Of a stretch of DNA of 27,207 bases, positions 3,163 through 27,168 are shown one piece after another. The DNA is from a virus. Location of the stretch: positions 1 through 27,207 of the IMG/VR virus record IMGVR_UViG_3300027906_002203. The stretch is one strand, 5' to 3'. The position numbers were made by a program, and so were the translations under genes. Below the pieces are notes generated by a model that saw nothing but the letters and a program-made list of their open reading frames with translations, searched no databases and had not been told where the DNA came from. Positions within the stretch are counted from its first letter, which is position 1; every line of letters begins with the position of its first letter.

Positions 3163-3873
3163 TTAAATCTCCTTTAACTTTTTCCATGTATCTTTGTAAT
3201 TACTAACACTATAACAAAAACCCAAGTCATTGTCAAGTATCTTTTTGCTTAATGGATAATCGTTTCCTGCTTCATCCATTCTGTCTCCGTAAAAATGTAA
3301 CACGTCAGTTGCCTTAAAGTCTTTTGTTATTTGACCTTTATCGTTGCCTCTAGGAAAAATATCTATTCCTGTTTCTCCTCCTACTACTGCTTGTATTGTA
3401 GGAAACAACATTTGAAATTCTTTTGCTATTCTATTTCTTTCATTCTCAGCTCTATCAAACTCAACGTACATTTTTCTTTCGCCTAGTGTTGCGTTACGTC
3501 CGACCACACTAAAGTTAACCATGCCAGGGCGTTCTTCAATATGTAAACCTGTGCGTAAAGGAAACTCACTAATGCGACACTCTGATATTAACCAACGTTC
3601 AGCTTCGTTGGGTAATTTCCATTCGCTTGTATGTAAATGCGTACTGCCTTCCCAAACATCAGCACCACTACAATTATAAACACGTTGAGCTAAACTATAA
3701 ATCTCTTCGCCTATTTGTTCTATAGTTTTTTCTCTATCACTACCTGTTATAAGATATACATCTTGTTCTGCACAAAACGTTGAAAAGAAAATTGCAAAGT
3801 CTGTGTTTATCTCACGTCGACTTGGCGTTAGTGTTCCGTCTACATCAAAAATATATTTGTTTAACCTAGCCAA
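3163..3873 (-). CDS. HAD-superfamily phosphatase, phosphomannomutase (PMM)-like
   Basis: This 236-residue protein carries the four HAD motifs: DVDGT with nucleophile Asp10 and Asp12, ITGSD with Thr43, Lys179 in GNDKGQ, and GDRMDEAGND with Asp197 and Asp205. The order and spacing, including the cap segment PGMVNFSVVGR and GIDIFP, match eukaryotic-type phosphomannomutases and the related type IIB-cap sugar-phosphate phosphatases. It therefore probably acts on a phosphosugar. The start is TTG: no ATG exists before the catalytic DxD motif, and AAAGG lies eight bases upstream. It overlaps the SGNH-like gene by 13 bases. With several sugar-related genes elsewhere in the window, a role in nucleotide-sugar or glycan metabolism is plausible. 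PMM versus phosphatase activity cannot be settled from sequence. Confidence 0.88.
   Translation of the reverse strand: MARLNKYIFDVDGTLTPSRREINTDFAIFFSTFCAEQDVYLITGSDREKTIEQIGEEIYSLAQRVYNCSGADVWEGSTHLHTSEWKLPNEAERWLISECRISEFPLRTGLHIEERPGMVNFSVVGRNATLGERKMYVEFDRAENERNRIAKEFQMLFPTIQAVVGGETGIDIFPRGNDKGQITKDFKATDVLHFYGDRMDEAGNDYPLSKKILDNDLGFCYSVSNYKDTWKKLKEI
3208..3236 (-). promoter_or_regulatory. Possible internal sigma70-type promoter
   Basis: On the minus strand, TTGACA (3236-3231), 17 bases, TATAGT (3213-3208). It lies inside the 3' end of the HAD gene and would give a ~40-base leader for the 41-residue membrane protein at 3161, with its Shine-Dalgarno intact. Unlike the four main promoters it is not adjacent to a start codon, and chance occurrence in AT-rich coding DNA is possible. 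Confidence 0.4.
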
Positions 3874-4855: not shown

Positions 4856-6294
4856 TACTCGTCCTCGTCATTGCCTAAGTTTTGTAAAAATGATCTTAAC
4901 TTTGTGCTATCTGTTTCTGCTTGTATAGGTTTAACTGCTGAACCTATTCCAGGTTCTTTAGGTGTGTCTGGTTCTTTATCTTGTGTTACATTACTAGATC
5001 TTTTTAGTCCTGCTATAACACTTGAACCTGTTGATTGACTATAACTGTTATCTTCATCTTCTGCTAAATCTGTAATACGCAAACAGTCTATATCAAACTC
5101 TAAATCTATCTTTGCACCAACACCAGAACTACTTCTAGTTTTCATAAGTTGTATTTGATATCTACCACGTTCACGCATAGCTCTACTTGTAAAGATACCT
5201 ATAACATTATCAGCAGTTTGTATTTTACTTAAACCACCTGCTATATGACTGTGATCAAATTCTATTTCTTCTACACTAGCTCTGTTTAACTGTGAAGCAG
5301 TTACAAATATACATTGTAGTTCCATTGCCAAGTTACGTAGTTCTTCTGATACAAACTTATCTTTAACAAACAAATCACTTGGACTTACTTTTTTACTTAA
5401 TGGCATCATTAAGTCTAAATAATCTATTAACAATACATCAATCTTTTTATTGTTTTTAACTTCATACTCTTTAACAAAACTTCTAATATCGTTTGCAGTC
5501 TTACCACTTGGCATATATTTTATCTGCATACCACCTGCTTTTTTACCTACAAGTTTAACTTTCATTTCAACTGTATCTAAATCTCTAAATATTTCTCTAC
5601 TTGGTATATCAGTCATCATACTATCTATACGCATAGCTACCAAGTTCTCACTTAATTCAAATGTTAGATATACAACGTTCATTCCGTTCAATGCCCAGTT
5701 GCAACCTAAGTTTGCTAAAAATAAACTCTTACCTGCACCACTACCACCTGCAAATATATTAAGTTCACCTTTGTTAAATCCACCAAACAGTTTCTTATCT
5801 AAACTTTCCCAACCTGTACTTACTTGTCCATTGTTATCTTTCAAACCCATAAGTCTACCTTTTGGATCTGCAAAGTAATCTATACCTAAGTCTTTTTGTA
5901 AACCTATTTGTACTGCTTCTTTAATTTTAGTTTCAACTGGACCATACTCACCTTTTTCAAGTAAGTCTGCACTTTCTAATATTGCACGTTCTAATGCTTT
6001 ATGTCTACTAAATGTTTCAAAGTCGCTTAACAACCAATCATAATGTTGTTCATTAAGTCCTTGTGGTACTTCTAATTTAACTTGAGTACAAGCACTATTA
6101 ACAATCTTTTGTGTAGGTAATGTATTGTGTTCTTCAACAAAGTTTTTAATAAACTCCGCCGATGGTGCTAGTTTACGATCAAAATTCTGCGGATCAAAGA
6201 CAGCTTGGCAACGCACAAAAGTTTGTGCATCACTTAACATTATTTCCAAATAAGTTTTTTGGATATCGAATCCGTAATCAGTATTTTGCTTCAT
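4855..6294 (-). CDS. 41: Replicative DNA helicase (T4 gp41-like, DnaB family)
   Basis: This 479-residue protein is about the length of T4 gp41 and has its layout: an N-terminal helical domain (about 1-145) followed by a RecA-like ATPase core. Visible motifs are Walker A GGSGAGKS (183-190), Walker B VLLIDYLDLM with Asp291, a TASQLNR segment (motif H3 type) and a C-terminal arginine-rich region (MRERGRYQIQLMKTR) that should include the arginine finger. It unwinds DNA at the replication fork as a hexamer together with primase gp61, which is encoded at 9093-10103. The C-terminal ~65 residues are polar and probably disordered, as expected for a protein-contact tail. Its promoter (6300-6328) ends only five bases before the ATG and no Shine-Dalgarno is present, so a leaderless transcript is likely. 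Confidence 0.95.
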   Translation of the reverse strand: MKQNTDYGFDIQKTYLEIMLSDAQTFVRCQAVFDPQNFDRKLAPSAEFIKNFVEEHNTLPTQKIVNSACTQVKLEVPQGLNEQHYDWLLSDFETFSRHKALERAILESADLLEKGEYGPVETKIKEAVQIGLQKDLGIDYFADPKGRLMGLKDNNGQVSTGWESLDKKLFGGFNKGELNIFAGGSGAGKSLFLANLGCNWALNGMNVVYLTFELSENLVAMRIDSMMTDIPSREIFRDLDTVEMKVKLVGKKAGGMQIKYMPSGKTANDIRSFVKEYEVKNNKKIDVLLIDYLDLMMPLSKKVSPSDLFVKDKFVSEELRNLAMELQCIFVTASQLNRASVEEIEFDHSHIAGGLSKIQTADNVIGIFTSRAMRERGRYQIQLMKTRSSSGVGAKIDLEFDIDCLRITDLAEDEDNSYSQSTGSSVIAGLKRSSNVTQDKEPDTPKEPGIGSAVKPIQAETDSTKLRSFLQNLGNDEDE

Positions 6295-7286
6295 GATTTA
6301 TTATACCATATTTTTTCATTAAAGTCAATATGTTTTTCTTTCAAAGCCAAAACAGCCCCAACACAACTTCCAGGATCACCTGGGTTCTTAGGAACATATA
6401 TGTTGTTCCAATTTCTTTTAATTTGATTTACTGCTACACTATTTAAAGCACAACCTCCTGTTAGTATTAAGTTACGACTTGGTAAGTTATTCAAGCACCA
6501 TTTACTATTTGATTTAAGTATTATTTCAAATACAAATTGAGTAGCATTTGCTAATCTTTTCATATCACCTTCTGTACTTAATTCAGGCTTATACCAATTT
6601 GCGCCTTTATGTAAATTGTGTTTAAACTTAACTCCAGGTTTAGTTCCATTTACAGGACCTTTAAGAAACGTTGCAACCATATCATTAATTAGATGTAAGT
6701 TTTCTGCTGACTCAATATCTCTACCACCTGGTTCAACTTGATACTCATCTCTGTTTGCTTTTAGTCCCATACGTTGCGTCATAGCACTATAAAATAATCC
6801 AACACTATGCGGATAACCTTGTGAGTATATTTTCTTTAGCTTGTCGCCTTTACCTTGCCATATAGTAAACGTTTCGTATTCGCCAATTGAGTCTAAACAC
6901 ATTATAGTTGCATTACGAAATCCACTTGTATAGTAACCATAGGCGGCGTGTGATTTATGATGCTTTACATACTTAATAGGTTGTTTGAATCCCCATTTAG
7001 CTAGATACTCTTTAATATTATTTTCTTTAAACAACCAACCTTGTCCTGCTTGTAGTTGTCTTAAACTTTTCAAGAAAGGTTTTTCGTACCAAACAATTTC
7101 ATCTGGGTAAGGGCAATTTGCTTCTATAAATTTAAGCATTGGTTTGTTCAAATGTGCATCGTTCTCAATGCCACTAAAGTCCTTAGACATTCCTGCCCAA
7201 TCACACGTTAGCTTACCGTATCTGTCTTCTTCAAATACTGCCACACTTGCATCATGACTGTTACCTACTATACCCCAAGTTATCAC
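6291..7286 (-). CDS. Carbamoyltransferase, NodU/TobZ family, N-terminal domain only
   Basis: This 331-residue protein matches the N-terminal (Kae1-like) domain of O-carbamoyltransferases. Motifs: HHKSHAA (109-115, metal binding), LDSIGEYET (131-139, in place of the usual D-G-x-GE), GGCALNS (277-283) and a final NPGDPGSCVGAVL glycine-rich segment. In NodU and TobZ this domain transfers the carbamoyl group from carbamoyladenylate to a hydroxyl, while a C-terminal YrdC-like domain (about residue 350 onward) makes carbamoyladenylate. That second domain is absent, and the reading frame after the stop belongs to gp41. The start is GTG, supported by GAGGAG eight bases upstream and a TAGTG overlap with clpP. 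The protein may therefore rely on a separate activating protein or have another role. Confidence 0.85.
   Translation of the reverse strand: MITWGIVGNSHDASVAVFEEDRYGKLTCDWAGMSKDFSGIENDAHLNKPMLKFIEANCPYPDEIVWYEKPFLKSLRQLQAGQGWLFKENNIKEYLAKWGFKQPIKYVKHHKSHAAYGYYTSGFRNATIMCLDSIGEYETFTIWQGKGDKLKKIYSQGYPHSVGLFYSAMTQRMGLKANRDEYQVEPGGRDIESAENLHLINDMVATFLKGPVNGTKPGVKFKHNLHKGANWYKPELSTEGDMKRLANATQFVFEIILKSNSKWCLNNLPSRNLILTGGCALNSVAVNQIKRNWNNIYVPKNPGDPGSCVGAVLALKEKHIDFNEKIWYNKS
6300..6328 (-). promoter_or_regulatory. Sigma70-type promoter of gp41 (leaderless geometry)
   Basis: On the minus strand: TTGACT (6328-6323), 17-base spacer ending in ATATGG, TATAAT (6305-6300), then five bases (AAATC) to the ATG of gp41. 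Transcription normally starts six to seven bases after the -10, which would be at or within the start codon. It lies inside the end of the carbamoyltransferase gene. Confidence 0.8.
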
Positions 7287-7864: not shown

Positions 7865-8100
7865 TATCTCTCCTTAAATTTTTTCCAGCTACTATGTAAT
7901 ACGTAAAACCAAACTCCATTTATCATCGGTTCTACCAACGCATCAATGGCCGCTAACTCTATACTTGCTCCTGTAATCATTGTTACACAGGCAATAGCAA
8001 TTATAAAATGTCCTATTGTATACACAATGGCTAGAGATAAAGAAGAACTATATAGAATACTTTTTGTGGAATTATAAATTCCTCTAGTTAGTTCTGTCAT
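7864..8100 (-). CDS. Small membrane protein, DUF2061-like
   Basis: This 78-residue protein has two hydrophobic segments (about 18-42 and 50-67) separated by [14 protein letters not shown], and ends in [10 protein letters not shown]. The layout (two helices joined by a short acidic region with a conserved EP/K position, then a basic W-containing tail) resembles DUF2061 membrane proteins, whose function is unknown. It overlaps the preceding gene by four bases and the clpP start by one, so it is co-translated with both. Assignment to the family is tentative. Confidence 0.6.
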
Positions 8101-8738
8101 TGTACTGCTCCTTCCATTTGCATACCCATTACATTAAAGCTCATACTAATTCTTGTTGTATCACTTTTGAAAGGATATACTGTGTGTTTAAGTCCGGCTT
8201 GAAACAATAAGAAGTCACCAGTCTTTGGTATTATCTTATGTGTTCCGTTAGCCCCTACGACATCTGGTCCATACATAAATTCGATCTGTCCAGGACAGTT
8301 CATATTAGTATCTTTGGTATGTTCCTCGTTAGCTATAACTTCAGGAACGTCTATGTATACAACTGCACTCAACATTCCTGAATGACTGTGTATAGGATTA
8401 AATTCATGCTTTGTTTGAAAGTTAATCCACGGTCCTGTACCTAAGTTAAAATTAACGTGGTCGTAATTTTTTTCAGCCATTGGAGTAATTAGATGACTGT
8501 TAAACCTTTCGTCTTCGAATTTCATAAAGTTTACAATATGTGGCGTTACCATTTCCATAAACCATTTTTGATCTTTTACTACTATGCCTAATTGTTCTTT
8601 TATATTACCTGCCAAATCGTACCCAACATTGTTACGTGCTATTCTTGTTTCTTCAGCAATCTCTTTCATAGACTTTATTTCGTCGTCTGACAGTCTACCA
8701 TGATATATTGTTGGGCCGAATGGTCTTATGAATTTCAT
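8097..8738 (-). CDS. 2-oxoglutarate/Fe(II)-dependent oxygenase-like protein
   Basis: This 213-residue protein shows the double-stranded beta-helix signature of putative 2OG-Fe(II) oxygenases: NPIHSHSG with His117-x-His119 (proximal metal site, in the H-x-H form common in one phage-rich subfamily, PF13759-type), followed by VVYIDVP, a GDFLLF strand, His185 in GLKHTV (distal metal ligand) and Arg196 in TTRISMSFN (2-oxoglutarate carboxylate). The substrate is unknown; related proteins in marine phages have been proposed to hydroxylate proteins or nucleic acids. It is one of three 2OG-type genes in the window, but clearly different from the other two in length and motif form. It starts by TAATG overlap with the preceding gene. 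Confidence 0.85.
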   Translation of the reverse strand: MKFIRPFGPTIYHGRLSDDEIKSMKEIAEETRIARNNVGYDLAGNIKEQLGIVVKDQKWFMEMVTPHIVNFMKFEDERFNSHLITPMAEKNYDHVNFNLGTGPWINFQTKHEFNPIHSHSGMLSAVVYIDVPEVIANEEHTKDTNMNCPGQIEFMYGPDVVGANGTHKIIPKTGDFLLFQAGLKHTVYPFKSDTTRISMSFNVMGMQMEGAVQ

Positions 8739-12012: not shown

Positions 12013-12306
12013 TTACTTACGTAGTTTTTTAATTAACAAAGGTAAGTAAACACCTACTGCAACAACTCCCCAAAAGATTCCTAGTGCTGAAGCATATATT
12101 ATCCAATTAGATAAATCTATAAGTATACCTCCAACAACTCCACCTATCCATACATAGTCAAGTGTTGCGTGAAACTTCTTCCACTTCGCACCATACGTTG
12201 CAATAAGTTGATCTCTTTTGTTAGCGAACCAAGGGTGTACGTGTCGCATTATTACGAAGCCTTCATTTAATACCATTACTGTAAATCCTATCCAGAATAA
12301 TATCAT
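12013..12306 (-). CDS. Integral membrane protein, unknown function
   Basis: This 97-residue protein has three probable transmembrane segments (about 1-19, 46-63 and 66-88) and a basic C-terminus (KKLRK). The loop between the first two contains HVHPWFANKRDQ. The start at 12306 is supported by GGAGG five bases upstream and an ATGA overlap with the SET gene's stop; in-frame methionines further upstream lie inside that gene. It is the last gene of its minus-strand unit and ends flush with the convergent SGNH-like gene. No family recognised. Confidence 0.7.
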   Translation of the reverse strand: MILFWIGFTVMVLNEGFVIMRHVHPWFANKRDQLIATYGAKWKKFHATLDYVWIGGVVGGILIDLSNWIIYASALGIFWGVVAVGVYLPLLIKKLRK

Positions 12307-12740
12307 TTGATCCTCCATCTTGATCCTCGTCTTACAATGTAACCACAGCACTTATCTGAATTACATTTACAAGGAAATTGTTTATAGTCTTGATCGAAAC
12401 TAAAACCGTAGTCGGCTGTTAGTTCCTCGCCCTTCTTAATATCTTTATATGCAGTTACCCATATCTTTAATCCCTTGCCATCATATTCACAATTCTCATC
12501 ACATGAATGATTTATTAACCTTGCAGTATTATATGCAAAGTTTCCATCTAGGTCGTAACGTTTATTAATTGTAAACAAGTAGATTGGCTTTGAGTTATCG
12601 TACTTGGGATTAGTATCAGTTTCTTTCTTTGTAATATACTTGCCTTTATAGTCTAGTATCTTTGTACCTTTTTTAATATCTCTTGAAGCGAAGAGGCCAC
12701 GGCCCTTGTGCTTTGTTTTCCCTACCTTGTACAGCTTCAT
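12303..12740 (-). CDS. SET-domain protein lysine methyltransferase
   Basis: This 145-residue protein is a compact complete SET domain: GRGLFASRDIKKG (13-25, AdoMet-binding loop), ARLINHSCDENC (73-84, the NHSC pseudoknot motif), GEELTADYGF (104-113, with the catalytic tyrosine Tyr111) and a post-SET zinc motif C-x-C-x4-C (Cys124, 126, 131, plus Cys132 and Cys80). SET enzymes methylate lysines of proteins, and minimal ones like this one occur in bacteria and some viruses. The substrate could be host or phage protein, such as a nucleoid or ribosomal protein. It begins by TAATG overlap with the CPxI-motif gene and its stop overlaps the membrane protein's start. The fold assignment is firm; the target is unknown. 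Confidence 0.92.
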   Translation of the reverse strand: MKLYKVGKTKHKGRGLFASRDIKKGTKILDYKGKYITKKETDTNPKYDNSKPIYLFTINKRYDLDGNFAYNTARLINHSCDENCEYDGKGLKIWVTAYKDIKKGEELTADYGFSFDQDYKQFPCKCNSDKCCGYIVRRGSRWRIK

Positions 12741-13477: not shown

Positions 13478-13566
13478 AATAAAAAATTATTAATAGTTCC
13501 GTAAATTAAAAACCCCCAGACAAGACTAATGCAAATCCAAAATCCTATCTTAGTTTTGTTGTTCAT
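13474..13566 (-). CDS. Very small membrane peptide (30 aa)
   Basis: The sequence MNNKTKIGFWICISLVWGFL continues IYGTINNFLL: a short polar N-terminus followed by one hydrophobic helix. It overlaps the preceding DnaE-like gene by 17 bases and its TGA overlaps the ATG of the next gene. AAAGG lies four bases before its ATG, a weak site. The exact double overlap makes a real gene more likely than chance, but the size leaves doubt. Function unknown. Confidence 0.5.
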   Translation of the reverse strand: MNNKTKIGFWICISLVWGFLIYGTINNFLL

Positions 13567-14119
13567 TAAGCCTTTCGCATATTAAATTCATTTGTACTAC
13601 TATTGCGTGTGCGTATGCAACTGCGTGTGCTTTTTTAAAGTAATAAGATCCATCAGTCGGTTTTGTCCACACGTCTTGCATTATACTCTGCCATGACTTC
13701 CCCATAAGTTTTCTCTTTGCGGGTCTTATTATCGCCAGTACCGCCGCTAGTTTCTCTATGCTGTCCGGCTTCAGTTCTTTTAGTATCGTACTGTGTTCTC
13801 CTACGTGAAATAATTTGGTTACGAATTCGTCGTGCGTGAGTAGATCCCATAATGGCTCCTTTTTCATTAATGCGTTTAAGTGTGCTTCGTCTTTAATGTC
13901 CTTATACATACTTACATTTAAAAAGTCTAGCTTAAAGTAGCCTCGCTCCTCTGCTGTTTCATAATCAATAGTAGACATTTTATCAACAGGATTATGTGGA
14001 ACTTCAGTTACATATACTCCCGTGTTATGTTTCTTTTTGTCGTCTAACCTTGCAACTCTATGTTTTAGCTTATCTAAAACAACTTCTCTGTCAGCAAAGT
14101 CTATGTCTATATCTGGCAT
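13550..14119 (-). CDS. Miniature DNA polymerase III alpha (DnaE)-like protein
   Basis: This 189-residue protein keeps, in order, short landmarks of the bacterial C-family polymerase DnaE: PDIDIDF (2-8), which in DnaE holds two catalytic aspartates; YFKLDFLNV (61-69), matching KFDFLGL with the third aspartate; EKLAAVLAIIRPAKR (122-136), matching the IALVALFRPGP region; and YYFKKAHAVAYAHAIVVQM (159-177), matching the KSHAAAYALVSYQT region. DnaE itself is about 1,160 residues, with several hundred between the first and last of these; here everything else (PHP domain, thumb, most fingers, tau and beta binding) is missing. T4-type phages use a family B polymerase, so this is unlikely to be the replicase. 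It may act as an accessory, inhibitor or decoy. Its ATG overlaps the preceding 57-residue gene. Confidence 0.75.
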   Translation of the reverse strand: MPDIDIDFADREVVLDKLKHRVARLDDKKKHNTGVYVTEVPHNPVDKMSTIDYETAEERGYFKLDFLNVSMYKDIKDEAHLNALMKKEPLWDLLTHDEFVTKLFHVGEHSTILKELKPDSIEKLAAVLAIIRPAKRKLMGKSWQSIMQDVWTKPTDGSYYFKKAHAVAYAHAIVVQMNLICERLNEQQN

Positions 14120-14280
14120 CCGTCTTCTCTATCTAATAGCTTATCTAGTTTATCTTCTATTCTAGTTAGCCTTTTGTTAAGTTTCTCCATCTCCTTTAGA
14201 AATATTTCTTTGTTCTCATCACCATATGCTTTCCATAAGGAATAATTCTTTTCATCTTTTGGACTAATACTGTTCGTCAT
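14107..14280 (-). CDS. Small charged coiled-coil protein (57 aa)
   Basis: The protein begins MTNSISPKDEKNYSLWKAYG and continues with a highly charged helix in which leucine and isoleucine recur at heptad spacing (EMEKLNKRLTRIEDKLDKLL), ending DREDGCQI. GGAG lies eight bases before the ATG. It overlaps the 2OG gene by 17 bases upstream and the DnaE-like gene by 13 bases downstream, each in a different frame. A short oligomerising coiled coil is likely. It may partner the DnaE-like protein it is coupled to (inference). Confidence 0.65.
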   Translation of the reverse strand: MTNSISPKDEKNYSLWKAYGDENKEIFLKEMEKLNKRLTRIEDKLDKLLDREDGCQI

Positions 14281-14764
14281 TTATTATCTCCGTTTTAAAT
14301 GCTAAAGTTATTCGCGGTTTATCAGCATCAATTGGTGCGTGTCCTTTGTGCAATTTTTTTGCATCAAAGCAAACTAATGTATTTTGGACAAAAGGAAACT
14401 TTGCTTCGTCCATAATTTCAAATGCACCACTGTCTTTAAGTGTTCCGCTTAACATATAAAGACAAGTTAAATCTCCATCATCAGCATGAAAGTCACTAAC
14501 CATGCCATTGTGTTGTACATTAATATACATTCTTATTAAACGTAATTGCTTGTTTAATGTCTTTTGTAACTTGTGAAACAAATATCTATTTAAAGCATCG
14601 TCTATACGTAATTCACTAATGTAAAATTCTTTTGAACCTTCTACAGATTTTTGACCAAAGTAGTGTGGATAGTTATATGTAAAGTAATCATCTAGATACT
14701 CTACCATATCCGCATTAAGCCAATTATCTACTTTTTTTATCATCTTTATTTTTTCTTCTTTCAT
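14264..14764 (-). CDS. 2OG-Fe(II) oxygenase, prolyl-hydroxylase-like
   Basis: This 166-residue protein is a compact 2OG oxygenase: FHADDGD (92-98) with the proximal His93-x-Asp95 metal site, then CLYMLS, FEIMDEAKFPF, and KKLHKGHAPI with the distal histidine (His139 or His142), followed by KPRITLAFK with Arg151 for 2-oxoglutarate. The form is that of P4H-type and phage-encoded small hydroxylases. The start is uncertain: ATG 14764 overlaps the preceding small gene by 41 bases, and ATG 14743 is an alternative; the longer in-frame extension up to 14836 is a shadow of that small gene. It is one of three 2OG-type genes here. The substrate is unknown. Confidence 0.85.
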   Translation of the reverse strand: MKEEKIKMIKKVDNWLNADMVEYLDDYFTYNYPHYFGQKSVEGSKEFYISELRIDDALNRYLFHKLQKTLNKQLRLIRMYINVQHNGMVSDFHADDGDLTCLYMLSGTLKDSGAFEIMDEAKFPFVQNTLVCFDAKKLHKGHAPIDADKPRITLAFKTEIINDEQY

Positions 14765-14894
14765 AAGGTTCGTCCCACGGTACTGCTCCACGTGGCTTAT
14801 CTTCTTTGCGTCTATCCTTTTTAAATATGTCATCAAAGTTGTTACGATACTTGTCAGTTGATGGTCTACTTCTTCCGTCCCATTTACCTGGCAT
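14724..14894 (-). CDS. Small conserved phage protein with PGKWDGRSRPS start (56 aa)
   Basis: The sequence starts MPGKWDGRSRPSTDKYRNNF, continues DDIFKKDRRKEDKPRGAVPW and ends in a lysine/arginine-rich tail. The KWDG.SRPS...Y..NF..IF pattern is, as I recall, a recurring small protein of marine T4-like phages. GGAGG lies ten bases before the ATG, and the ATG overlaps the stop of the zinc-finger gene (TAATG). It is basic, tryptophan-containing and likely disordered. Function unknown. Confidence 0.75.
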   Translation of the reverse strand: MPGKWDGRSRPSTDKYRNNFDDIFKKDRRKEDKPRGAVPWDEPYERRKNKDDKKSR

Positions 14895-16322: not shown

Positions 16323-16970
16323 TTATTTTTTAATCCTGTTCTTTAAGTAAGATAACAAGATACCATATGCTGGTAGGAATACAATTAGTCCTACTGCAAT
16401 TTTGGTTAGTGTATTATTTTGTGCAACAATGTGCCAGTTTTCACCGATCCATGTTAAGTTGCCTTCCGCATCTGTTGAACCAGCGAATGCTGTAAAAAAG
16501 AAAGCATAAGTGTCGATGACGTTAGCCGCGATAGTTGATATCGCCGGTGCCGCCCACCACATATCTGTATACTTCTCTCTTATATGTTGGAAAACATATA
16601 CGTCTAGCATAGTACCAATTGCGTAAGCAGTACCAGATGCAAGACCAACTCTGTATGCGTGTTCATCTCCTAGTGCAAGTAATACTAACACCGAGGCTAT
16701 GATTGCCGGAATAATAGCCATTGCAACAACGGCCCTTCCAGCTTCTTTACCAACTAACCTTACAGTTAAGTCAGTTGCAACAACTACGATCGGAAACGTA
16801 AACGCCGCCGCCGCTAAAGGAAATGATCCAAACAATGGTAAATCTGCACCAGGGAATAAATCGAACCTAATTGTTACCAAGTAATTTGATACAGCAATAG
16901 TCAATGTATGCAATATTACAAGTTTAGTGACTAGTGCTTTATCAACACCGTCTAGTAGTTTTGAGAACAT
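16323..16970 (-). CDS. Queuosine precursor transporter, VUT/YhhQ family
   Basis: This 215-residue integral membrane protein has about six hydrophobic segments (roughly 12-33, 48-72, 80-100, 106-128, 145-162, 188-210). Family features of VUT_1/YhhQ are visible: FPIVVVATDLTVRLVGKEAGR, GTMLDVYVFQHIREK, and STIAANVIDTYAFFFTAF, where YhhQ has matching TD, LDV-F and ST..VDT-FF positions. YhhQ moves preQ0 or preQ1, the 7-deazaguanine precursors of queuosine. Phage copies have been described, and some phages use 7-deazaguanine bases in DNA. No queuosine synthesis gene is visible here. It has an excellent AAGGAGG six bases before the ATG, a clean terminator after it, and raised GC relative to neighbours, suggesting strong expression or separate origin. 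Confidence 0.85.
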   Translation of the reverse strand: MFSKLLDGVDKALVTKLVILHTLTIAVSNYLVTIRFDLFPGADLPLFGSFPLAAAAFTFPIVVVATDLTVRLVGKEAGRAVVAMAIIPAIIASVLVLLALGDEHAYRVGLASGTAYAIGTMLDVYVFQHIREKYTDMWWAAPAISTIAANVIDTYAFFFTAFAGSTDAEGNLTWIGENWHIVAQNNTLTKIAVGLIVFLPAYGILLSYLKNRIKK

Positions 16971-17352: not shown

Positions 17353-18117
17353 CTAATCTTGAAATGCAAACAACTTCTCAACAATATGTCCATCAATATT
17401 AACATAACGTCTTATATGTGTTGGGTCTTTTCTTGGTGTAACACCATGTAAGCTATCTACTGAATTTAAAAAGCAAACCATTGTGTTACGTTTATATGGT
17501 ACGTGATCAACAGCTTTTATATCTTCTGGTAGTGCTTCACGTCCCGTAATTCTACGCCATTGTTTTCCTGCTGTGTTTCTATAAATGTTTAGTCCACCAT
17601 CTTCACCTTTGTCTTCTGGCTTCTTAAAATAAAACAAACAAGCAAATAATTCTTTTGATTGATCAACGTGTGGTGTACGTATTTGTTTGTGGTCTATTGC
17701 ATTCATTACAAATTGCAATTCCATTCTTACTGTACTTCCTACAGGTTGTTTTCTAGGACTTACTTCTGATCTAATATACTTTGTATATAGGTCTTCTGCA
17801 AATCTACCCTTAGGATATAAGTCAGTCATTGGTACTCTAAATGCACGTAACAGTTCGTCTTTATATTGTTTGCTAGTATGATATGCGGCAAAGTCACGCC
17901 ATAAAGGTGTTACTACGTTTTCGTAATCAAACTCGTGTTGTTGATAACGCATTGTACCAAAGCCTGTATCTTTTCCTTTTGTACAATGTTGTTCTGGGTA
18001 TTCTGCTTCTAACTTTTCGTATAAGTCCCAAGGTAATACCTCAGGTATGTATATGTAAGGAAAAGGGTTTGTCTTCAACATAGAGGGTTTGAAGTTTTGT
18101 AATACACTTAGGTTCAT
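17353..18117 (-). CDS. 2OG-Fe(II) oxygenase
   Basis: This 254-residue protein has the 2OG oxygenase core in its second half: RTPHVDQSKEL with His150-x-Asp152, FACLFYFK, GGLNIYR, then DSLHGVTP (His224) and THIRRYVNIDGH with the arginine pair 236-237. The first half (NPFPYIYIPEVLPWDLYEKLE...) resembles the entry helices of a family of such oxygenases often found beside glycosyltransferases and methyltransferases. Here it follows two methyltransferase genes. The start overlaps the previous stop by four bases. The substrate is unknown; a sugar, lipid or modified glycan is possible given the neighbours. Confidence 0.85.
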   Translation of the reverse strand: MNLSVLQNFKPSMLKTNPFPYIYIPEVLPWDLYEKLEAEYPEQHCTKGKDTGFGTMRYQQHEFDYENVVTPLWRDFAAYHTSKQYKDELLRAFRVPMTDLYPKGRFAEDLYTKYIRSEVSPRKQPVGSTVRMELQFVMNAIDHKQIRTPHVDQSKELFACLFYFKKPEDKGEDGGLNIYRNTAGKQWRRITGREALPEDIKAVDHVPYKRNTMVCFLNSVDSLHGVTPRKDPTHIRRYVNIDGHIVEKLFAFQD

Positions 18118-20621: not shown

Positions 20622-20842
20622 TCTTTTTTCATTCTCATTATCTGTTTGGGAGTTAGTTTACCTGTGTCAGGGTCTAGCTTTGATAACCGACAACTAAACA
20701 AATTCTTAGGTCCTTTACTCGTTGTTATTACGGGTTGACCTTTGTTGTCGAGACTAATGTCTTTAATTTTAGTTGTTACGTTTCTAAACTTACCAACCAT
20801 AACTTCGTCTCCAACATTAATTTCGACAACAAATTTCTTCAC
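20618..20842 (-). CDS. Small basic protein, possible SH3/KOW-like fold, unknown function
   Basis: This 74-residue protein reads VGDEVMVGKFRNVTTKIKDISLDNKGQPVI, a pattern of alternating strands like KOW or SH3-type domains, followed by a basic tail (KLTPKQIMRMKKE). The start is GTG at 20842, which overlaps the UvsW stop as GTGA with AAGG about ten bases upstream; the frame also offers TTG six bases earlier. It is coupled to both neighbours and would be made alongside UvsW. Function unknown; nucleic-acid binding fits the composition. Confidence 0.7.
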   Translation of the reverse strand: MKKFVVEINVGDEVMVGKFRNVTTKIKDISLDNKGQPVITTSKGPKNLFSCRLSKLDPDTGKLTPKQIMRMKKE

Positions 20843-22296
20843 GACCAATCAACCTTTTCTATTGTAAAAGGATATTGTGCTTCTTTATAAAACTTTTTGC
20901 GAGATGTTAAATGTCTCTTTGCATATTTGCATGAGCTAGTTAAATCCCATATCTGCACAAAATCTTTATCTTCTGCCTTTCTTATGCCTCTGCCTATACT
21001 CTGTATAACTCTTACGAAAGACTTCCCGGGTTCAATAAGAACAAGATTAAATATACGAGGAATATTGATACCAACACTGGCAACACCGTACGTAGCAATA
21101 AGTACTTTATTCGTTGCTTCTTTAACTTCATCATACTGCTCCTTTCTATCTTTAAGTTTTACATCACCTTTAATAAAAACTGAGTCAGGAATAGCCGCTT
21201 GTAATTGTTCACCAGCACTAATCCTATCTACTAGAATTAATGTGTTACCACTATCTTTAATACCACTACACATCTTTGCCAAGTACTTTACTCTATCTTT
21301 GTTTGTAACAAGATATTTTAGTTCTTCTTGATATGAGTTATAAACAGTTGTGTCTAACAGTTGTACAACGTTTACGTGACACTTGGATAACACACCTTTG
21401 TCTTGTAATTCTTTTGCACTAATCTGATTTATTACAGGTCCTATACTTGCTAGAATACTTTGAAATTCAAATTGTTCTTTAGGTATAGTTCCAGTTAATC
21501 CCCAACGTATTGGAGCATTTCTTAAGTTTTGAGTTAATAATTTTTTTAATACATCTGCCTTTGCTTGGTGTACTTCATCTATAATAATTGTTTCTACGCC
21601 TTCTAAAAATTCTGCTAGTGTTAGTTTAGCCTCGCCGTCTTTTGTTTTCTTATCAAGTATGTTTAAACTTTGCCAAGTACAGATTGTATGTGTTTTGCCT
21701 AGTTCTTTTCTATCGCCAAAATAAACGCCGACATCTAATCCGACGTTAATGTAATCTTCTTCTGTTTGTGTTACAAGTGATTTGTTTGGTACAATAACTA
21801 ATGTTCTACCTATCTTCTCGCATATATGCGATAGTGTAGCAGTAATAATAGTTTTACCTGCACCAGTGGCAACCTCTTGTAAGCATTGTGGGGTTTCCAC
21901 AAATTTATTAATTGTTTCGACTTGGTAGTCACGAAGTATAATTTGTTCGCCTTCTGCTGGATGACCTTTTGGCCAAGTCTTATGTGACCAATAGTTTTCA
22001 TCAATAGCTTCAAATGATAGTTCGTGCTTTACTCGGTTATCTTTTATCTCTGCAATTTCAACACCTGCGTCAACAAGTGTGTTTACAATGATATCAAGAT
22101 GATTAACATAACCAGTACCGCCAATTCCGAAAAAAGCCACAGTTCCATCCCATCTCCCTAATTTGTATTGTGGAAGATAACGTGCATAAGGTACTTGGAA
22201 CTTTAGCTTGTTAGCTATTTTCCGTCTATACTCAACGGGCAGATTCTCTACCTTCACATTAACTTCGTCTTGGATTATTATTCTACAACTTACCAT
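20839..22296 (-). CDS. uvsW: UvsW recombination/branch-migration helicase
   Basis: This 485-residue protein has the two-part layout of T4 UvsW: an N-terminal DNA-binding domain (about 1-110, RYLPQYKLGRWDG...) and an SF2 helicase core. Motifs: ATGAGKT (143-149, Walker A), IIDEVHQ (238-244, DEVH box), LTGT (267-270, motif III) and QSIGRGIRK (motif VI, near 440). T4 UvsW unwinds R-loops and branched DNA and drives the switch from origin- to recombination-dependent replication. Here it follows the 428-residue gene with only a two-base gap, so both are transcribed from the promoter at 23592-23620. No Shine-Dalgarno precedes its ATG. Confidence 0.95.
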   Translation of the reverse strand: MVSCRIIIQDEVNVKVENLPVEYRRKIANKLKFQVPYARYLPQYKLGRWDGTVAFFGIGGTGYVNHLDIIVNTLVDAGVEIAEIKDNRVKHELSFEAIDENYWSHKTWPKGHPAEGEQIILRDYQVETINKFVETPQCLQEVATGAGKTIITATLSHICEKIGRTLVIVPNKSLVTQTEEDYINVGLDVGVYFGDRKELGKTHTICTWQSLNILDKKTKDGEAKLTLAEFLEGVETIIIDEVHQAKADVLKKLLTQNLRNAPIRWGLTGTIPKEQFEFQSILASIGPVINQISAKELQDKGVLSKCHVNVVQLLDTTVYNSYQEELKYLVTNKDRVKYLAKMCSGIKDSGNTLILVDRISAGEQLQAAIPDSVFIKGDVKLKDRKEQYDEVKEATNKVLIATYGVASVGINIPRIFNLVLIEPGKSFVRVIQSIGRGIRKAEDKDFVQIWDLTSSCKYAKRHLTSRKKFYKEAQYPFTIEKVDWS

Positions 22297-22297
22297 A

Positions 22298-23584
22298 TTA
22301 TATTATTTCTGCTTTTACTGTTCCATAACTATAATGCGGACTTGCGTCTGCGTCATATTGTATAATAAGATTCTGTGAGCTGACAAAACTCTCAATGTTA
22401 TGAGAGAATTTATTACTGCCTAGTGTGAAAATGCCTTTTGGTTTCCAGCCTTGTATTTTTAATATAGGCTTCGGAATCTTATTATTACTAATATACACTA
22501 CTTTTGTATTTTTGTCAACACTATTATTTAATCCCTGAGCCTTGACATATTGGTTAAATTGTATAGCATCATTACCTATCTTACTGTCCAATCTAAACAA
22601 AACGGCCATTTGTTTAGTATCAATAAAGTTTCTTAACAAGTTATGCATCTTTGTTACTTCGCCATAACTGTCTTTTGGACTAACCATTATCATTAATGGA
22701 TACCTATTCATTTCATCAATACTTTTAACTAACTCTTCCAATGGCCAAGTAGTACTATTAACACAAACAAGACTACTTGTTCTATTAACAATTTTTTTAG
22801 TTAGTTCGGATTTATCTTTTATACTTTCTGCTACTGCATCTAAGTCAAAATGATTTATTCCGTAGTAATGTCTTCTATCATAGTATTGAAATATATTTTT
22901 ATAGTTAGGTTGTCCTAATTCATCTAAACAAATATCAATACCTGATTGTGGATAGTTTTGAAAGTTAAATTTATAAATGCCCGGTACATAGTCTTGTGGA
23001 TTGTCGTCAAAAACTTTTAACTGTTTGTGTATATCTAATATTGATTCGTCAATATCAAACTGCTTATCAAACTTACTTGCAACTTCAACTAACTTCCAAA
23101 TGTACTTTTCTTTTAACGGAAAGTAATGTGTATGCTTGTCGTAAAAGTAATCTTTGTCAGTTTTATTTTTTAGTTCTTCAATATACTTGATTACTTTTTT
23201 ATTAAACGGAAAACGGATAGCAATCATTTTCTCGCCTTTGTATTCTACAAACTTGATCCAATGACTACTATCTATTTCCCGCAGTGGAAATCTTAATTTT
23301 TCCACGGCTTCATGTAGGTCAATTTCATGGGCACTGAATTGATCTACATAGTATTCAGTTAATAACTTTTTAACTAATGAATACTGTTTAGCAGTAAGAG
23401 CCGTGCCTCGAAATACTTGTTTAGCGATACTAAACATTATATTTGCATTGTCTTCATGCAAGTGGAAGTTCTGTAGTTTGGATAACTCAGGATCAGGTGA
23501 ATATTTTAATTCACTTATCCCAGCGGCCAATTCTAAACAGTCTTCTGTATTGAGGGCTTTTTTGGTGATAGTTCTCTTATGCAT
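22298..23584 (-). CDS. Unknown protein paired with UvsW; HARP-like N-terminal segment
   Basis: This 428-residue protein is the first gene of the UvsW unit. Around residues 122-175 a segment beginning AIRFPFNKKVIKYIEELKN and continuing HTHYFPLKEKYIWKLVEVASKF resembles the HARP/SMARCAL1-type DNA-contact pattern (a strand, helix, then W-containing strand), although similarity by eye is weak. The rest contains an alpha/beta part (about 255-415) with VCVNSTTWPLEELVKS and YPLMIMVSPKDS, but no Walker A or DEAH motif. It could be an inactive helicase-like partner of UvsW. The ATG is seven bases after the -10 box and there is no Shine-Dalgarno, so the message is almost leaderless. Confidence 0.7.
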   Translation of the reverse strand: MHKRTITKKALNTEDCLELAAGISELKYSPDPELSKLQNFHLHEDNANIMFSIAKQVFRGTALTAKQYSLVKKLLTEYYVDQFSAHEIDLHEAVEKLRFPLREIDSSHWIKFVEYKGEKMIAIRFPFNKKVIKYIEELKNKTDKDYFYDKHTHYFPLKEKYIWKLVEVASKFDKQFDIDESILDIHKQLKVFDDNPQDYVPGIYKFNFQNYPQSGIDICLDELGQPNYKNIFQYYDRRHYYGINHFDLDAVAESIKDKSELTKKIVNRTSSLVCVNSTTWPLEELVKSIDEMNRYPLMIMVSPKDSYGEVTKMHNLLRNFIDTKQMAVLFRLDSKIGNDAIQFNQYVKAQGLNNSVDKNTKVVYISNNKIPKPILKIQGWKPKGIFTLGSNKFSHNIESFVSSQNLIIQYDADASPHYSYGTVKAEII

Positions 23585-23591
23585 AACTAGT

Positions 23592-23620
23592 ATTATACTA
23601 GATTATAGATAAGAAGTCAA
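23592..23620 (-). promoter_or_regulatory. Sigma70-type promoter of the UvsW unit (leaderless geometry)
   Basis: On the minus strand: TTGACT (23620-23615), 17-base spacer, TATAAT (23597-23592), then seven bases (ACTAGTT) to the ATG at 23584. The -35 lies inside the last codons of the GT-B paralog 1. It has the same -35, spacer length and -10 as the gp41 and primase promoters. Confidence 0.8.
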
Positions 23621-24448
23621 GCGATTTAGCGGTAATCCTGCAGATATTTCTTCCAATGTCCACTCTGTATAAGCAATATCATTAAGCCATTGAGTTCTAT
23701 CAGGACGTTTTGGCATTCCTATTGTACTTAAATTTAAGTTTCCTACATCATATGCTAAACTATCTGGACCAACAAATACAGGAACTCCATTCATTACTGC
23801 TTCTGTGGCAGGGTTACTAGACCAGTTTACAACTGCATAAGCACCTGTACAACTAAAGTCAAAGTCGTCATATGTGTCTTTAACTTGTGATGGTGTTTGT
23901 CTTTCTACTCTTTTGTGATCGTGTTCTATCATAGGAACAGGACATCTTGGGTGAGGTCTCCATACTATTGGCATATCAGTATATTCTCTAATTGTATTGA
24001 TTGTATTTCCTAACCAAGCAGTCATGTTAGGAAGGTTCCTCCACTGGTGACTTTTATCGTGTTGTCCACAAATAATTATTCTATCTCCGCCTAGTGACCA
24101 AGGCTTTAATTGTAAGCCTAATTTATTTGCACGTTCAGGTCCATTACCTTTTGGACCAAAGATAGCTTCTCTATTAATTCCGCCGATAGCTACTTTCCAA
24201 GTAGTTCCTCGCTTTAGTCCTCCGACTTCAAGGACGATAACTTTCTTGCCGAGGGCGTGTAAGTCGTCCCAGACTTTTTTGTTTCCAGCCATTCTACCGT
24301 GCCAAAGCACAGACCAAATAACGCCAACATCGCAATCGTAAGTATTATCAATAACGGTATGCCCAGCACTAGTAAGACTGTTTGCAAAAGCATCAAACAC
24401 TGGTTCTGAATTTTGTGCACCATAGGCTCTAAATAAACTAAACTTCAT
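23603..24448 (-). CDS. GT-B-like glycosyltransferase, paralog 1
   Basis: This 281-residue protein shows features of retaining capsule-type GT-B enzymes (KpsC/KpsS or CDP-glycerol transferase-like): VWRPHPRCP in the second half, then NWSSNPATEAVMNGVPVFVG, in which the EA...G-P part typically contacts the nucleotide. It is homologous to the genes at 25250-26182 and 26173-27168 (shared LG-x-LKPWS, IRxYT-x-P, R-PHP, the serine/EA block and a C-terminal W-RKIA/T-WS-like region). An earlier N-terminal half contains a DVGVIWSVLWHGR segment. It lies between GT-A and the UvsW unit. The target could be phage DNA, a phage protein or a host surface sugar. The ATG overlaps the GT-A stop by 11 bases. Confidence 0.75.
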   Translation of the reverse strand: MKFSLFRAYGAQNSEPVFDAFANSLTSAGHTVIDNTYDCDVGVIWSVLWHGRMAGNKKVWDDLHALGKKVIVLEVGGLKRGTTWKVAIGGINREAIFGPKGNGPERANKLGLQLKPWSLGGDRIIICGQHDKSHQWRNLPNMTAWLGNTINTIREYTDMPIVWRPHPRCPVPMIEHDHKRVERQTPSQVKDTYDDFDFSCTGAYAVVNWSSNPATEAVMNGVPVFVGPDSLAYDVGNLNLSTIGMPKRPDRTQWLNDIAYTEWTLEEISAGLPLNRLTSYL

Positions 24449-25253
24449 TCCAATACGTTTCGCTACGAGGTTGTAGTAGGTCTCTTTTTCTACTACGTCC
24501 TTCTGATTTACGAACTCCTTTCAAGTGGTCAAAGTACTTACCGAGTTCACAGTTGATAAGTGGGTGTCCTTCGCCATTTACTAAATGTCCGCTAAAGTCT
24601 TTTACGTTACCATGTGTCGGTGTGATCTTCTTTAAGACTTCCCAGAATACATAACTATCGTGCCATTCTTCCATTAAAAATATTCCTTGTTCTGCTTCAT
24701 CGTATACACGTTGAAACTCTTTAAGGAAAGCATCGCAACCTGGACTACGTAATGTAAGACCATAAAAGCCACACTCAGGCCATTTTTTATTTCTACCTAA
24801 ATAGTGTAGCCATGCAGTTGCAGGTACTAACAATCTAAACTCACCATATGTAATAGGACTATGTACGTAAGTATCTGCGTCCATCCATACTAGTATGTCT
24901 GTGTCGTCTTTCTTTGCTTCATGGAATACAGCATAAACTTTGTTAGCAAATCTAACTGCGTCCCATTTAAATTCTTTATGATTATCTCTTGGTCTTCTTT
25001 CAGGCCAAGGACATTTGCCATTAGCTTTAGGAACTTGTCCCCATTCGTTTTTAAATTTTTGTAAGTCAGGTAATGTTGCATCAGCATCATATATTGTTAC
25101 TCTGTTTTCGTCTGGATTAACAGGAATACATTTCTCTGCATATACATTTAATTTAATTCTTGGATCAACTTTTTCACAAAATGAATCAATAAAACGTTGA
25201 CCATATTGTTCTAGTCCTGGTTGATGAAACGTTGTTACAACTGTTATGTTCAT
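24438..25253 (-). CDS. GT-A-type glycosyltransferase-like protein
   Basis: This 271-residue protein starts with a beta strand (NITVVTTFH) like Rossmann-type GT-A enzymes and has WMDADTYV (Asp125-x-Asp127), the metal- and nucleotide-sugar-binding DxD motif. FKWDAVRFANKVYAVF (96-110) just before it matches the nucleotide-binding region of such enzymes, and GHLVNGEGHP follows near the C-terminus. The start at ATG 25253 overlaps the previous stop (ATGA); an upstream in-frame ATG lies inside the preceding gene. It sits between two GT-B-like paralogs. The donor and acceptor are unknown. Confidence 0.8.
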   Translation of the reverse strand: MNITVVTTFHQPGLEQYGQRFIDSFCEKVDPRIKLNVYAEKCIPVNPDENRVTIYDADATLPDLQKFKNEWGQVPKANGKCPWPERRPRDNHKEFKWDAVRFANKVYAVFHEAKKDDTDILVWMDADTYVHSPITYGEFRLLVPATAWLHYLGRNKKWPECGFYGLTLRSPGCDAFLKEFQRVYDEAEQGIFLMEEWHDSYVFWEVLKKITPTHGNVKDFSGHLVNGEGHPLINCELGKYFDHLKGVRKSEGRSRKRDLLQPRSETYWNEV

Positions 25254-26182
25254 ATCTTTAGGTACCTTTTCATATGTTGCCAACATTCGCCACTACGTAA
25301 ATCTGCAAAACTCCAATGGCATTGTGCAATCTTTCTTATCCAACTTTCTCTGTCTATTGGACCTAGCTTACTAATTTCTGATAAACTTTTATGTGCTACA
25401 TCTCCTACTTGGCTACCTTGTGCATCTTCAACAATAATTGGAACACCTTCTATAACACTTGCTACTAATGGGCTACTATTAAATCCAATAGTTACCATAC
25501 TCTTTGCAAGGTCGTGTTCTATCATTGGTTCAAAACTAACTCTAACATTTTCACCTGATATCTTTTTAATATACTCTGGTGCTTTTTTATCTCCAGGGTG
25601 TGGTCTTACAATAATAGGTCTTGTAGTATACTTTCTTATTTCAGCAATTTTATGATTAGCCCAAACAACAACGTCTTTACCTTTCATACTCCAGCCGCCA
25701 TTACGTTGTAAGCAAAGTAGTACGTGTTCTCTTTCATTAATGCTCCAAGGCTTTAATTCAACACCTAAATCTCTTTTAATTTTATTCCATTGTTGATCAG
25801 TAGGAGCATCATTACAATACTCTCCTGTATCATTAAACACACCATTAATACTATAACGTAAGTAATGATGTGGTTCGTTTTGTCTTGCTTTGTATAAAAA
25901 TAAATTACTGTCTGCTGTAATAAATGCTTTATTACGTGTGTTCATTGTAATATTTCTACGTAAATTAATATGTGGAACGTGAGCACTATTGTCGTGTAAA
26001 AAGCCTTGCATAATTGCAACATCACAATCCATCATTTCAAAACCATCGTATAGTAAACCATTGTCGCCAGCCATGCGAACCCCATCAACATAATTTTTTA
26101 ATATGTCATACTTGTGATTAGACTTACCAGGCTTTAATGATTTTCCAGGTGGAATAACTTTTGTATATGCTATTACTCGCAT
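25250..26182 (-). CDS. GT-B-like glycosyltransferase, paralog 2
   Basis: This 310-residue protein shares LGVELKPWS, IRKYTTRPIIVRPHPG, GFNSSPLVASVIEGVPIIV and a C-terminal WIRKIAQCHWS block with paralog 1. In paralog 1 the block reads NPATEA, here SPLVAS, so the acidic residue is lost. The start at 26182 is decided by GGAGG ten bases upstream; an upstream TTG is part of that Shine-Dalgarno. It overlaps paralog 3 by ten bases. Predicted to act on a glycan, but no substrate can be named. Sequence divergence between the paralogs is large, so they were not duplicated recently. Confidence 0.75.
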   Translation of the reverse strand: MRVIAYTKVIPPGKSLKPGKSNHKYDILKNYVDGVRMAGDNGLLYDGFEMMDCDVAIMQGFLHDNSAHVPHINLRRNITMNTRNKAFITADSNLFLYKARQNEPHHYLRYSINGVFNDTGEYCNDAPTDQQWNKIKRDLGVELKPWSINEREHVLLCLQRNGGWSMKGKDVVVWANHKIAEIRKYTTRPIIVRPHPGDKKAPEYIKKISGENVRVSFEPMIEHDLAKSMVTIGFNSSPLVASVIEGVPIIVEDAQGSQVGDVAHKSLSEISKLGPIDRESWIRKIAQCHWSFADLRSGECWQHMKRYLKI

Positions 26183-27168
26183 TGTAACGTCCTCCAAGCA
26201 TGACCACTTATCATTTCTTCATAAGTAAATTGGTTATTGCTGAGGTATCTACAAAGCCACGTTAATGCTTTTCTACCAGGGTGTTTAATAAATTCTATTC
26301 TTTCAATTTTAGTTTCGCAAATGTCTTGAGCACAGTTTGGTCCTAATACTATTGCAGGTTTACCATATACCATTGCTTCTAAGGCCGCGATACTATTATA
26401 AGTTACCATACAATGTACGTCCTCTTCTAATGCTTGTTCCATTGTGTTAATACTAACACGAGCTTCTCTACTTGGCTTCTTACGTACTTCAACTGGTCTT
26501 GAAGTATGTTTCTTAATAGTTATAATTGTATTCTGAATCCATTGCTCCAAGTCTTCATTAAAGTATTTCATTACTTTTTCACTTGGTGGAACAATTAAAA
26601 TTTTTCTGCCTGGTACTGGATCTTTAAATTGTATTCCTAATTGTTTAAAACGTTCCCCACCGAACTGTTGTGGCCATAATTCTCTATCTGGCATATGAAG
26701 ATTTTGTAATGCGTTTTTTACAATTCTATGATAAGTCTTTTTACCGTTAGGGTTTCTTGGACTAGGATTGTTACCTAAGTAACCTGTATCCATAAAGTAA
26801 AAGTCTTTTTTACGTGCAATACATTCTTTAATAATCTTTTGTTTACCTAACCCTCTAACTAAAAAAGGAGCAGGATGATCCCAATAATCATTTACGTCAT
26901 CTGCTCTAATATATTTTCCGCCACTACCTAGTGCCATACTCATAATAAAGGAGTCAACAATTCCAAATGAACCTTTGACTTTCTTTTCTACTTTTTTAAT
27001 ACCGCTATCTATACAAATAACTTTAGGATTCTTTACGTCTTCGAATACTTTATTAATTGCTTCAATGGCGTGTCTATTGTCACCAATAGCTACTCCGTAT
27101 AATATTTCGTTAATTACTTCTTTCATCTCAGGTGTTAAATGCCTCGGATCCCATTCGCCATTACTCAT
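26173..27168 (-). CDS. GT-B-like glycosyltransferase, paralog 3 (diverged)
   Basis: This 331-residue protein aligns by blocks with paralogs 1 and 2: LGIQFKDPVPG, IKKHTSRPVEVRKKPS, VTYNSIAALEAMVYGKPAIVLG, and a final TWLCRYLSNNQFTYEE. The R-PHP motif of the other two is RKKP here, with loss of the histidine, while the EA...G-P block is kept. It is longer at the N-terminus, with an additional ~45 residues (DPRHLTPEMKEVINEILYG...). It may be a non-catalytic partner or have altered donor use. The ATG overlaps the TGA of the partial gene at the right edge, and GGGGAA lies about five bases upstream. Confidence 0.7.
   Translation of the reverse strand: MSNGEWDPRHLTPEMKEVINEILYGVAIGDNRHAIEAINKVFEDVKNPKVICIDSGIKKVEKKVKGSFGIVDSFIMSMALGSGGKYIRADDVNDYWDHPAPFLVRGLGKQKIIKECIARKKDFYFMDTGYLGNNPSPRNPNGKKTYHRIVKNALQNLHMPDRELWPQQFGGERFKQLGIQFKDPVPGRKILIVPPSEKVMKYFNEDLEQWIQNTIITIKKHTSRPVEVRKKPSREARVSINTMEQALEEDVHCMVTYNSIAALEAMVYGKPAIVLGPNCAQDICETKIERIEFIKHPGRKALTWLCRYLSNNQFTYEEMISGHAWRTLQCE

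Follow-up and report, generated by a model that had tools for sequence, protein, structure and literature searches.

This analysis concerns IMG/VR virus record IMGVR_UViG_3300027906_002203, positions 1 to 27,207 (the window, 27,207 nucleotides in all), and within it a run of four genes, P1 to P4, at 23603-27168. Three of these, P1, P3 and P4, encode related proteins that are predicted to have the GT-B-like fold of the retaining beta-Kdo (3-deoxy-D-manno-oct-2-ulosonic acid) transferases, and in sequence alignments the Asp nucleophile that defines those enzymes is absent from all three copies, a point overlooked in an initial annotation of this DNA. With a probability of about one half, judging from sequence comparison and structural models, P1, P3 and P4 are soluble glycosyltransferases that serially build a defined phage oligosaccharide, by direct displacement, on the virion or another cytoplasmic phage product.

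23603-24448, minus strand: P1, 281 aa, GT-B-like glycosyltransferase with predicted beta-Kdo-transferase fold; HP motif kept, Asp nucleophile replaced
24438-25286, minus strand: P2, GT-A (GT2-like) enzyme with invariant DxD; true start probably 25253
25250-26182, minus strand: P3, P1 paralog, 310 aa; HP motif kept, QRNGGWSM where QXXXDXS is expected
26173-27168, minus strand: P4, 331 aa, the furthest diverged of the paralogs; Q changed to P, HP changed to K/R-P

The coordinates and reading frames first assigned to this interval were correct on checking. P3 is counted from an ATG, the longest open reading frame beginning at a TTG at 26197, and the probable ATG start of P2 at 25253 overlaps the P3 stop codon. 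Overlaps of a few bases join P1 to P4, an arrangement as in a co-translated operon, and the ratio of non-synonymous to synonymous substitution rates (dN/dS) of 0.08-0.18 indicates strong purifying selection; the four are therefore all real, constrained genes.

Relationship and predicted fold of P1, P3 and P4

The kinship of the three adjacent genes is evident both from BLASTP (P1-P3 3e-18, P1-P4 1e-12, P3-P4 9e-8) and from hhalign comparison of their family profiles, aligned over 234-283 columns (P1-P3 1.4e-53, P3-P4 1.2e-42, P1-P4 4.8e-38), while the family of the intervening gene P2, used as a control, gave E 0.17 against the paralog profiles and is unrelated to them. The copies are far closer to one another than to KpsC, so that their relationship withstands the refuting test named with the initial annotation, hhalign values of 4.8e-38 or better standing against 1e-5 to 3e-3 for a profile of 13 KpsC modules from alphaproteobacterial genomes (P1 9.8e-6, P3 7.2e-5, P4 0.003). 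The motifs on which the initial annotation had based the relationship are present in each: an LG-x-(L/F)K motif (LGLQLKPW in P1, LGVELKPW in P3, LGIQFKD in P4), an R-PHP motif (RPHP in P1 and P3, RKKP in P4), and an S/EA...G-P nucleotide block (SSNP..A..GVP, NSSP..SVIEGVP and NSIAALEA..GKP, respectively). Residues R164, P167, S211, G221, E267 and G271 of P1 are invariant across 53 aligned sequences. In a tree with KpsC as the distant group, P1 (100/100), P3 (95/86) and P4 (97/92) form separate clades, and copies with an intact QXXXD motif fall in one further clade and one deep branch. By sequence, then, P1, P3 and P4 are ancient sister copies, each its own clade. The description of the locus as a tandem triplication holds insofar as three homologs are adjacent; the recent event that the term suggests does not, because the paralogs split before the whole phage lineage diversified.

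Structure prediction supports the GT-B-like fold that had been proposed. The AlphaFold2 model of P1, built from an alignment of 50 natural sequences, has a predicted local distance difference test score (pLDDT) of 95.0 and a predicted template modelling score (pTM) of 0.90; the values for P4 are 87.2 and 0.83. In Foldseek searches of the PDB, the best 23 matches of P1 (top E 6.1e-8) and the best 20 of P4 (top E 3.6e-5) are all WbbB, KpsC or KrkA, so that KpsC, suggested at the outset for comparison, was a good choice. These models support a rearranged GT-B-like fold of the retaining beta-Kdo transferase type for P1 and P4, and homology to both supports the same type for P3. When a viral structure library was searched, the closest named matches came from Tetraselmis virus 1 (capsule-synthesis-type proteins) and from Caulobacter phage CcrColossus (one protein) (template modelling score, TM, ~0.64-0.76; E down to 6.8e-18). 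None of P1-P4 was itself usefully matched in profile searches of Pfam, PHROGs and PDB sequences, weak matches to ribosomal S20, Cas13d, Ndc80 and EF-G IV being judged chance. Pfam Capsule_synth (PF05159, KpsC/KpsS) was unmatched by P1, P3 and P4 and was reached by one P3-family member at E 0.0086; individual relatives of the three genes touch Capsule_synth, Epimerase_2 and DUF6716.

Catalytic positions

Enzymes of the WbbB/KpsC/KrkA type have an absolutely conserved Asp nucleophile within QXXXD, an HP histidine and a Glu base (PMC10148158, PMC9587256, PMC12887879). In profile alignments, the KpsC Gln falls on P1 Q129, P3 Q159 and P4 P195, the HP His on P1 H166, P3 H195 and P4 K231, and the base Glu on P1 E74, P3 D91 and P4 D127, the P4 alignment being weak. 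The corresponding sites, all on the minus strand, are as follows.

24227-24229, minus strand: P1 Glu74, at the general-base position, where KpsC has the E of EDGFLRS; E in 52/53 sequences, D in 1/53
24050-24064, minus strand: P1 Q129-HDK-S133, the QXXXD place; Q in 53/53, Ser at Q+4 in 50/53 and Asp in 1/53
23948-23959, minus strand: P1 R164-P-H-P167, the HP motif; H in 52/53, P in 53/53
25910-25912, minus strand: P3 Asp91, general-base position; D in 46/49, E in 3/49
25688-25708, minus strand: P3 Q159-RNGGW-S165, with Gly163 at the place of the KpsC nucleophile Asp; Q in 49/49, Gly at Q+4 in 42/49, S165 in 49/49
25595-25606, minus strand: P3 R193-P-H-P196; H in 49/49
26788-26790, minus strand: P4 Asp127, general-base position; 48/48
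26572-26586, minus strand: P4 P195-SEKV, at the QXXXD place; P in 48/48
26473-26484, minus strand: P4 R229-K-K-P232, replacing RPHP; R229 in 48/48, the His position being K in 43 and R in 5

In the alignment of P1 with KpsC, a two-residue deletion at QXXXD removes the Asp. The general-base position is acidic in every P1-, P3- and P4-family sequence examined. The three proteins thus lack the nucleophile by which retaining beta-Kdo transferases are recognized, and they probably share the fold of those enzymes and descend from them. Additional paralogs with both QXXXD and the His intact occur in related phages (loci L057, L145, L188, L242-L246 and L253, and ct7QV12); Glu, Gln, Asp and His are invariant in the ten that were aligned, and the copy in L057 reads QRPGDSSL, followed by RPHP. 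The simplest reading of these sequences is probably an ancestor with the QXXXD nucleophile, which was lost in three lines.

Direct displacement suggests itself for P1 and P3, in which the base acid and the leaving-group residue are kept and the nucleophile is missing; P4 is further changed. In such a mechanism, the acceptor would bind the N-terminal domain, the kept acid (E74, D91 or D127) would deprotonate it, and the HP His (Lys or Arg in P4) would stabilize the leaving nucleotide phosphate, such that the sugar would be moved by direct displacement with no Asp-sugar adduct. P1, P3 and P4 would act in series to give a single defined oligosaccharide.

The module and its phage lineage

Scans of IMG/VR with P1, P3 and P4 found ~180 loci. 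Once duplicate P1 sequences had been removed, 49 distinct marine phage loci show, as far as the contigs reach, the order cytidylyltransferase/mannose-6-phosphate isomerase (PMI) fusion-(TylF)-GT8-P4-P3-P2-P1-P5-uvsW, with additional P4 or P2 copies in some; gp32 and UvsX lie further upstream, placing the module between uvsX and uvsW. In relatives, the right-hand neighbours, at a place just past the edge of the window, encode a GT8-like transferase, an O-methyltransferase of TylF type and a nucleotidylyltransferase/mannose-6-phosphate-isomerase-like fusion, the last resembling RfaE domain II plus the PMI part of GMP_PMI. Several relatives have the P4 and GT8 genes fused, which ties P4 to the same pathway as GT8. 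This strict synteny, which in some phages extends to KdsA and KdsB, bears out the initial description of a glycan-building module.

20839-22296, minus strand: UvsW helicase, a constant neighbour on the left side of the module
22298-23584, minus strand: P5, orphan, 428 aa, usually between P1 and uvsW; tied to the module by linkage only
24873-24881, minus strand: P2 D136-A-D138, the DxD motif, both Asp invariant in 55 sequences

The GT-A gene that had been noted inside the set is P2, which lies between P1 and P3. Pfam Glycos_transf_2 (PF00535) is matched by 10 of 53 members of its family (best 7.7e-6) and not by P2 itself; together with the DxD motif, these matches support grouping P2 with GT2-type GT-A enzymes. 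Its orthologs occupy the constant place between P3 and P1 on either strand (e.g. L029:5144-6022, minus strand), and the gene is inverted in ~22 distinct loci. Searches of Pfam, PHROGs and sequenced phages gave no credible match for P5; nearly always located between P1 and UvsW, the protein is perhaps a UvsW partner.

A DNA-level search of sequenced phages gave no close match to the window. Among ten large related records, eight have gp23, which is nearest to that of Sinorhizobium phage Phosso, Vibrio phage 2.275.O and Erwinia/Serratia jumbo phages, and the affinities of UvsW agree. On the basis of these two proteins, the window most likely comes from a T4-like marine phage with kinship to those jumbo phages. 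A bacterial origin of the module was considered and rejected: a P1-profile scan of species genomes returned seven contigs, all with phage-module neighbours (six carry several genes of the module, and the seventh is a 3.9 kb piece holding GT8, P3 and P1), and because these look like phage contigs binned into metagenome-assembled genomes, no cellular home was found.

As for the donor, sugars would be supplied by host or phage genes, with CMP (cytidine monophosphate)-Kdo used in KdsA/KdsB carriers. In six distinct phages (L022, L025, L055, L057, L073 and L188), the genes for KdsA and KdsB, i.e. for CMP-Kdo synthesis, are located a few genes past uvsW. One KdsA passes both NCBIfam equivalog cut-offs and the other KdsA tested passes one of the two; for the phage KdsB, the best matches are KdsB models, with scores below their cut-offs. 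From these sequences, such phages could themselves make CMP-Kdo for some modules. Of 8 records in which KdsA and/or KdsB lies close to the module, 3 have an intact QXXXD copy, versus none of 12 others, a suggestive link in a non-random sample that includes several short contigs.

The acceptor and alternative interpretations

For serial direct displacement by P1, P3 and P4, the most likely acceptor would be a virion protein or some other phage product in the cytoplasm. Ten large related records (up to 268 kb) were searched for genes expected of other routes. The thymidylate-synthase-fold dCMP/dUMP hydroxymethylase (PF00303) was found in none of the ten (9 of 14 control genomes were positive), nor were the WbaP-type priming transferase (PF02397) or the Wzx flippase (PF01943), for both of which the controls were positive; the TET/JBP oxygenase (PF12851) was likewise found in 0/10, a weak result in that its control was silent. 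Without hydroxymethylase, Wzx or WbaP-type genes, both DNA glycosylation along the known route and a complete phage surface-polysaccharide pathway are disfavoured, the latter being unlikely to be phage-encoded. The acceptors that remain may be a virion or other cytoplasmic protein, or host lipopolysaccharide (LPS) precursors. Gene position slightly favours the virion, since related copies lie directly behind tail genes in CcrBL9 and near the terminase in ct7QV12. Of the targets named in the initial annotation, DNA has accordingly lost ground, leaving tail fibre or virion and the host surface as candidates.

A number of observations weigh against this interpretation. The virus records are incomplete or of uncertain completeness, making the absences soft. 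No virion gene adjoins the module in the window, where it is surrounded by genes of replication and recombination. When compared with the Kdo transferases, the P1 model reaches a TM-score of only ~0.5 and the P4 model one of only 0.3-0.5, with root-mean-square deviations of 6 A or more, and the sequence link between P4 and KpsC is weak (hhalign probability 10%). The deep forks in the tree, from which it follows that the nucleophile was lost more than once, have moderate support only. Finally, KdsA and KdsB were searched for in the window and not found, which makes Kdo no more than a candidate donor here.

The best-surviving alternative, although a rather doubtful one, is modification of the host surface, in which residues would be added to LPS or O-chain precursors of the infected cell, blocking superinfection, a role already suggested for the GT8/rfaE genes of pelagimyophages. 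All known fold relatives (WbbB, KpsC and KrkA) work on LPS or capsule, some related phages have CMP-Kdo genes, and the GT8- and rfaE-type genes that form part of the module are LPS-related in pelagimyophages, where they are read as O-chain modifiers (PMC7029224). Against it stand the lack of a flippase or priming transferase in the ten records, so that export would have to rely on host machinery, and the constant order of the module genes across divergent phages, whereas host-surface genes are usually variable.

Glycosylation of phage DNA, with hydroxylated bases decorated for protection as by T4 beta-gt, is improbable: the module does sit in a replication and recombination neighbourhood, flanked by uvsX and uvsW, but the records lack the hydroxymethylase (and, more weakly, TET/JBP), and neither Pfam nor PHROGs places any of P1-P4 in a known family of DNA glucosyltransferases. 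It is a shade less probable still that P1, P3 and P4 are pseudoenzymes, without catalysis of their own, that scaffold or regulate the GT-A and GT8 enzymes. The loss of Q, H and D from P4 and its fusion to GT8 in several phages would suit such a role; however, each diverged family retains about nine or more invariant positions, including the base-position acid or nucleotide-side residues, and all three are under strong purifying selection. Least probable of all is that the proteins are still retaining beta-Kdo or ulosonic acid transferases using another nucleophile, e.g. the Ser conserved beside the lost Asp (49/49 in P3, 50/53 in P1) in a lineage where some phages have KdsA/KdsB, for that Ser aligns with the KpsC Ser two places after the Asp (DxS) rather than with the nucleophile, and P1 is shorter than the KpsC module from base to Gln (55 vs ~90 residues), the stretch with the Kdo-contact residues of KpsC.

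Comparison with known systems

The retaining beta-Kdo transferases WbbB (GT99), the KpsC modules (GT107) and KrkA (GT140) are the best solved structural match common to P1 and P4. Features kept are the HP motif and the Gln of QXXXD (both in P1 and P3) and an acid at the general-base position. Differences include the loss of the Asp nucleophile from all three proteins and of the Gln and His from P4, the shorter P1, the single-module architecture, and a sequence similarity that lies under Pfam detection. Viral 'capsule polysaccharide biosynthesis' proteins, namely A0A2P0VNK4, A0A2P0VP54 and two unnamed relatives in Tetraselmis virus 1, K4JVV7 in CcrColossus and gp525-526 in CcrBL9, are likewise multi-copy, and in CcrBL9 two related copies follow one another within a cluster located behind tail genes; however, they belong to other virus groups, have other neighbours, and carry annotated rather than characterized functions.

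Among T4-like marine phages, pelagimyophages and cyanomyophages also have GT8 and rfaE-type genes (PMC7029224), and in Pelagibacter phage Mosig a GT8 gene is grouped with P4-like and P2-like genes. The LPS genes of these phages lie largely in a hypervariable region for host recognition or are scattered in small clusters, whereas the module described here is constant, beside uvsW, and contains beta-Kdo-fold paralogs. Virion glycosylation by phage-encoded glycosyltransferases, the use proposed here, has been shown experimentally in mycobacteriophages, as PMC12619734 cites from Freeman 2023; here that use is inferred. Moraphages, another jumbo lineage, have four core glycosyltransferase groups (PMC12619734).

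Other genes in the window

Further genes, on the minus strand unless noted, were observed elsewhere in the window. Two are possible further sugar-modifying genes, encoding a carbamoyltransferase N-terminal domain (6291-7286; PF02543, 5.5e-25) and a phosphomannomutase-like haloacid dehalogenase-type (HAD) protein (3163-3873; PF03332, 6.3e-25). Two 2-oxoglutarate (2OG)-Fe(II) oxygenases (8097-8738 and 17353-18117; PF13759 and PF13640) do not match TET/JBP, and the product of 14264-14836 (strand not given) resembles such oxygenases by eye. A SET-domain protein (12303-12740; PF00856, 5.2e-24) is unusual for a phage. A Vut_1 transporter (16323-16970; PF02592, 5.7e-20) belongs to a family that includes queuosine-precursor transporters. 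Lastly, PDIDIDF and FKKAHAVAYA in a 189 aa protein (13550-14119) recall, by eye only, the bacterial DNA polymerase III alpha subunit.

Implications

The authors of the WbbB work derive the donor half of the retaining beta-Kdo transferases from an inverting sialyltransferase-like ancestor, and the evolutionary origin of these enzymes has been termed unclear by those who solved their structures (PMC10148158). It is tentatively proposed that P1, P3 and P4 may be single-displacement enzymes derived from, or bridging to, this double-displacement family, and that, acting serially, they may assemble one fixed glycan for their marine, jumbo-related phage. The retaining beta-Kdo transferases are rare among glycosyltransferases in being proven to use double displacement, and the presence within single phage genomes of same-fold families with and without the nucleophile makes the gain or loss of that chemistry directly testable. 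The analysis also offers an identity for genes unrecognized by Pfam and PHROGs, in a constant module of a widespread marine phage lineage, and suggests that some marine phages of this lineage have their own CMP-Kdo production.

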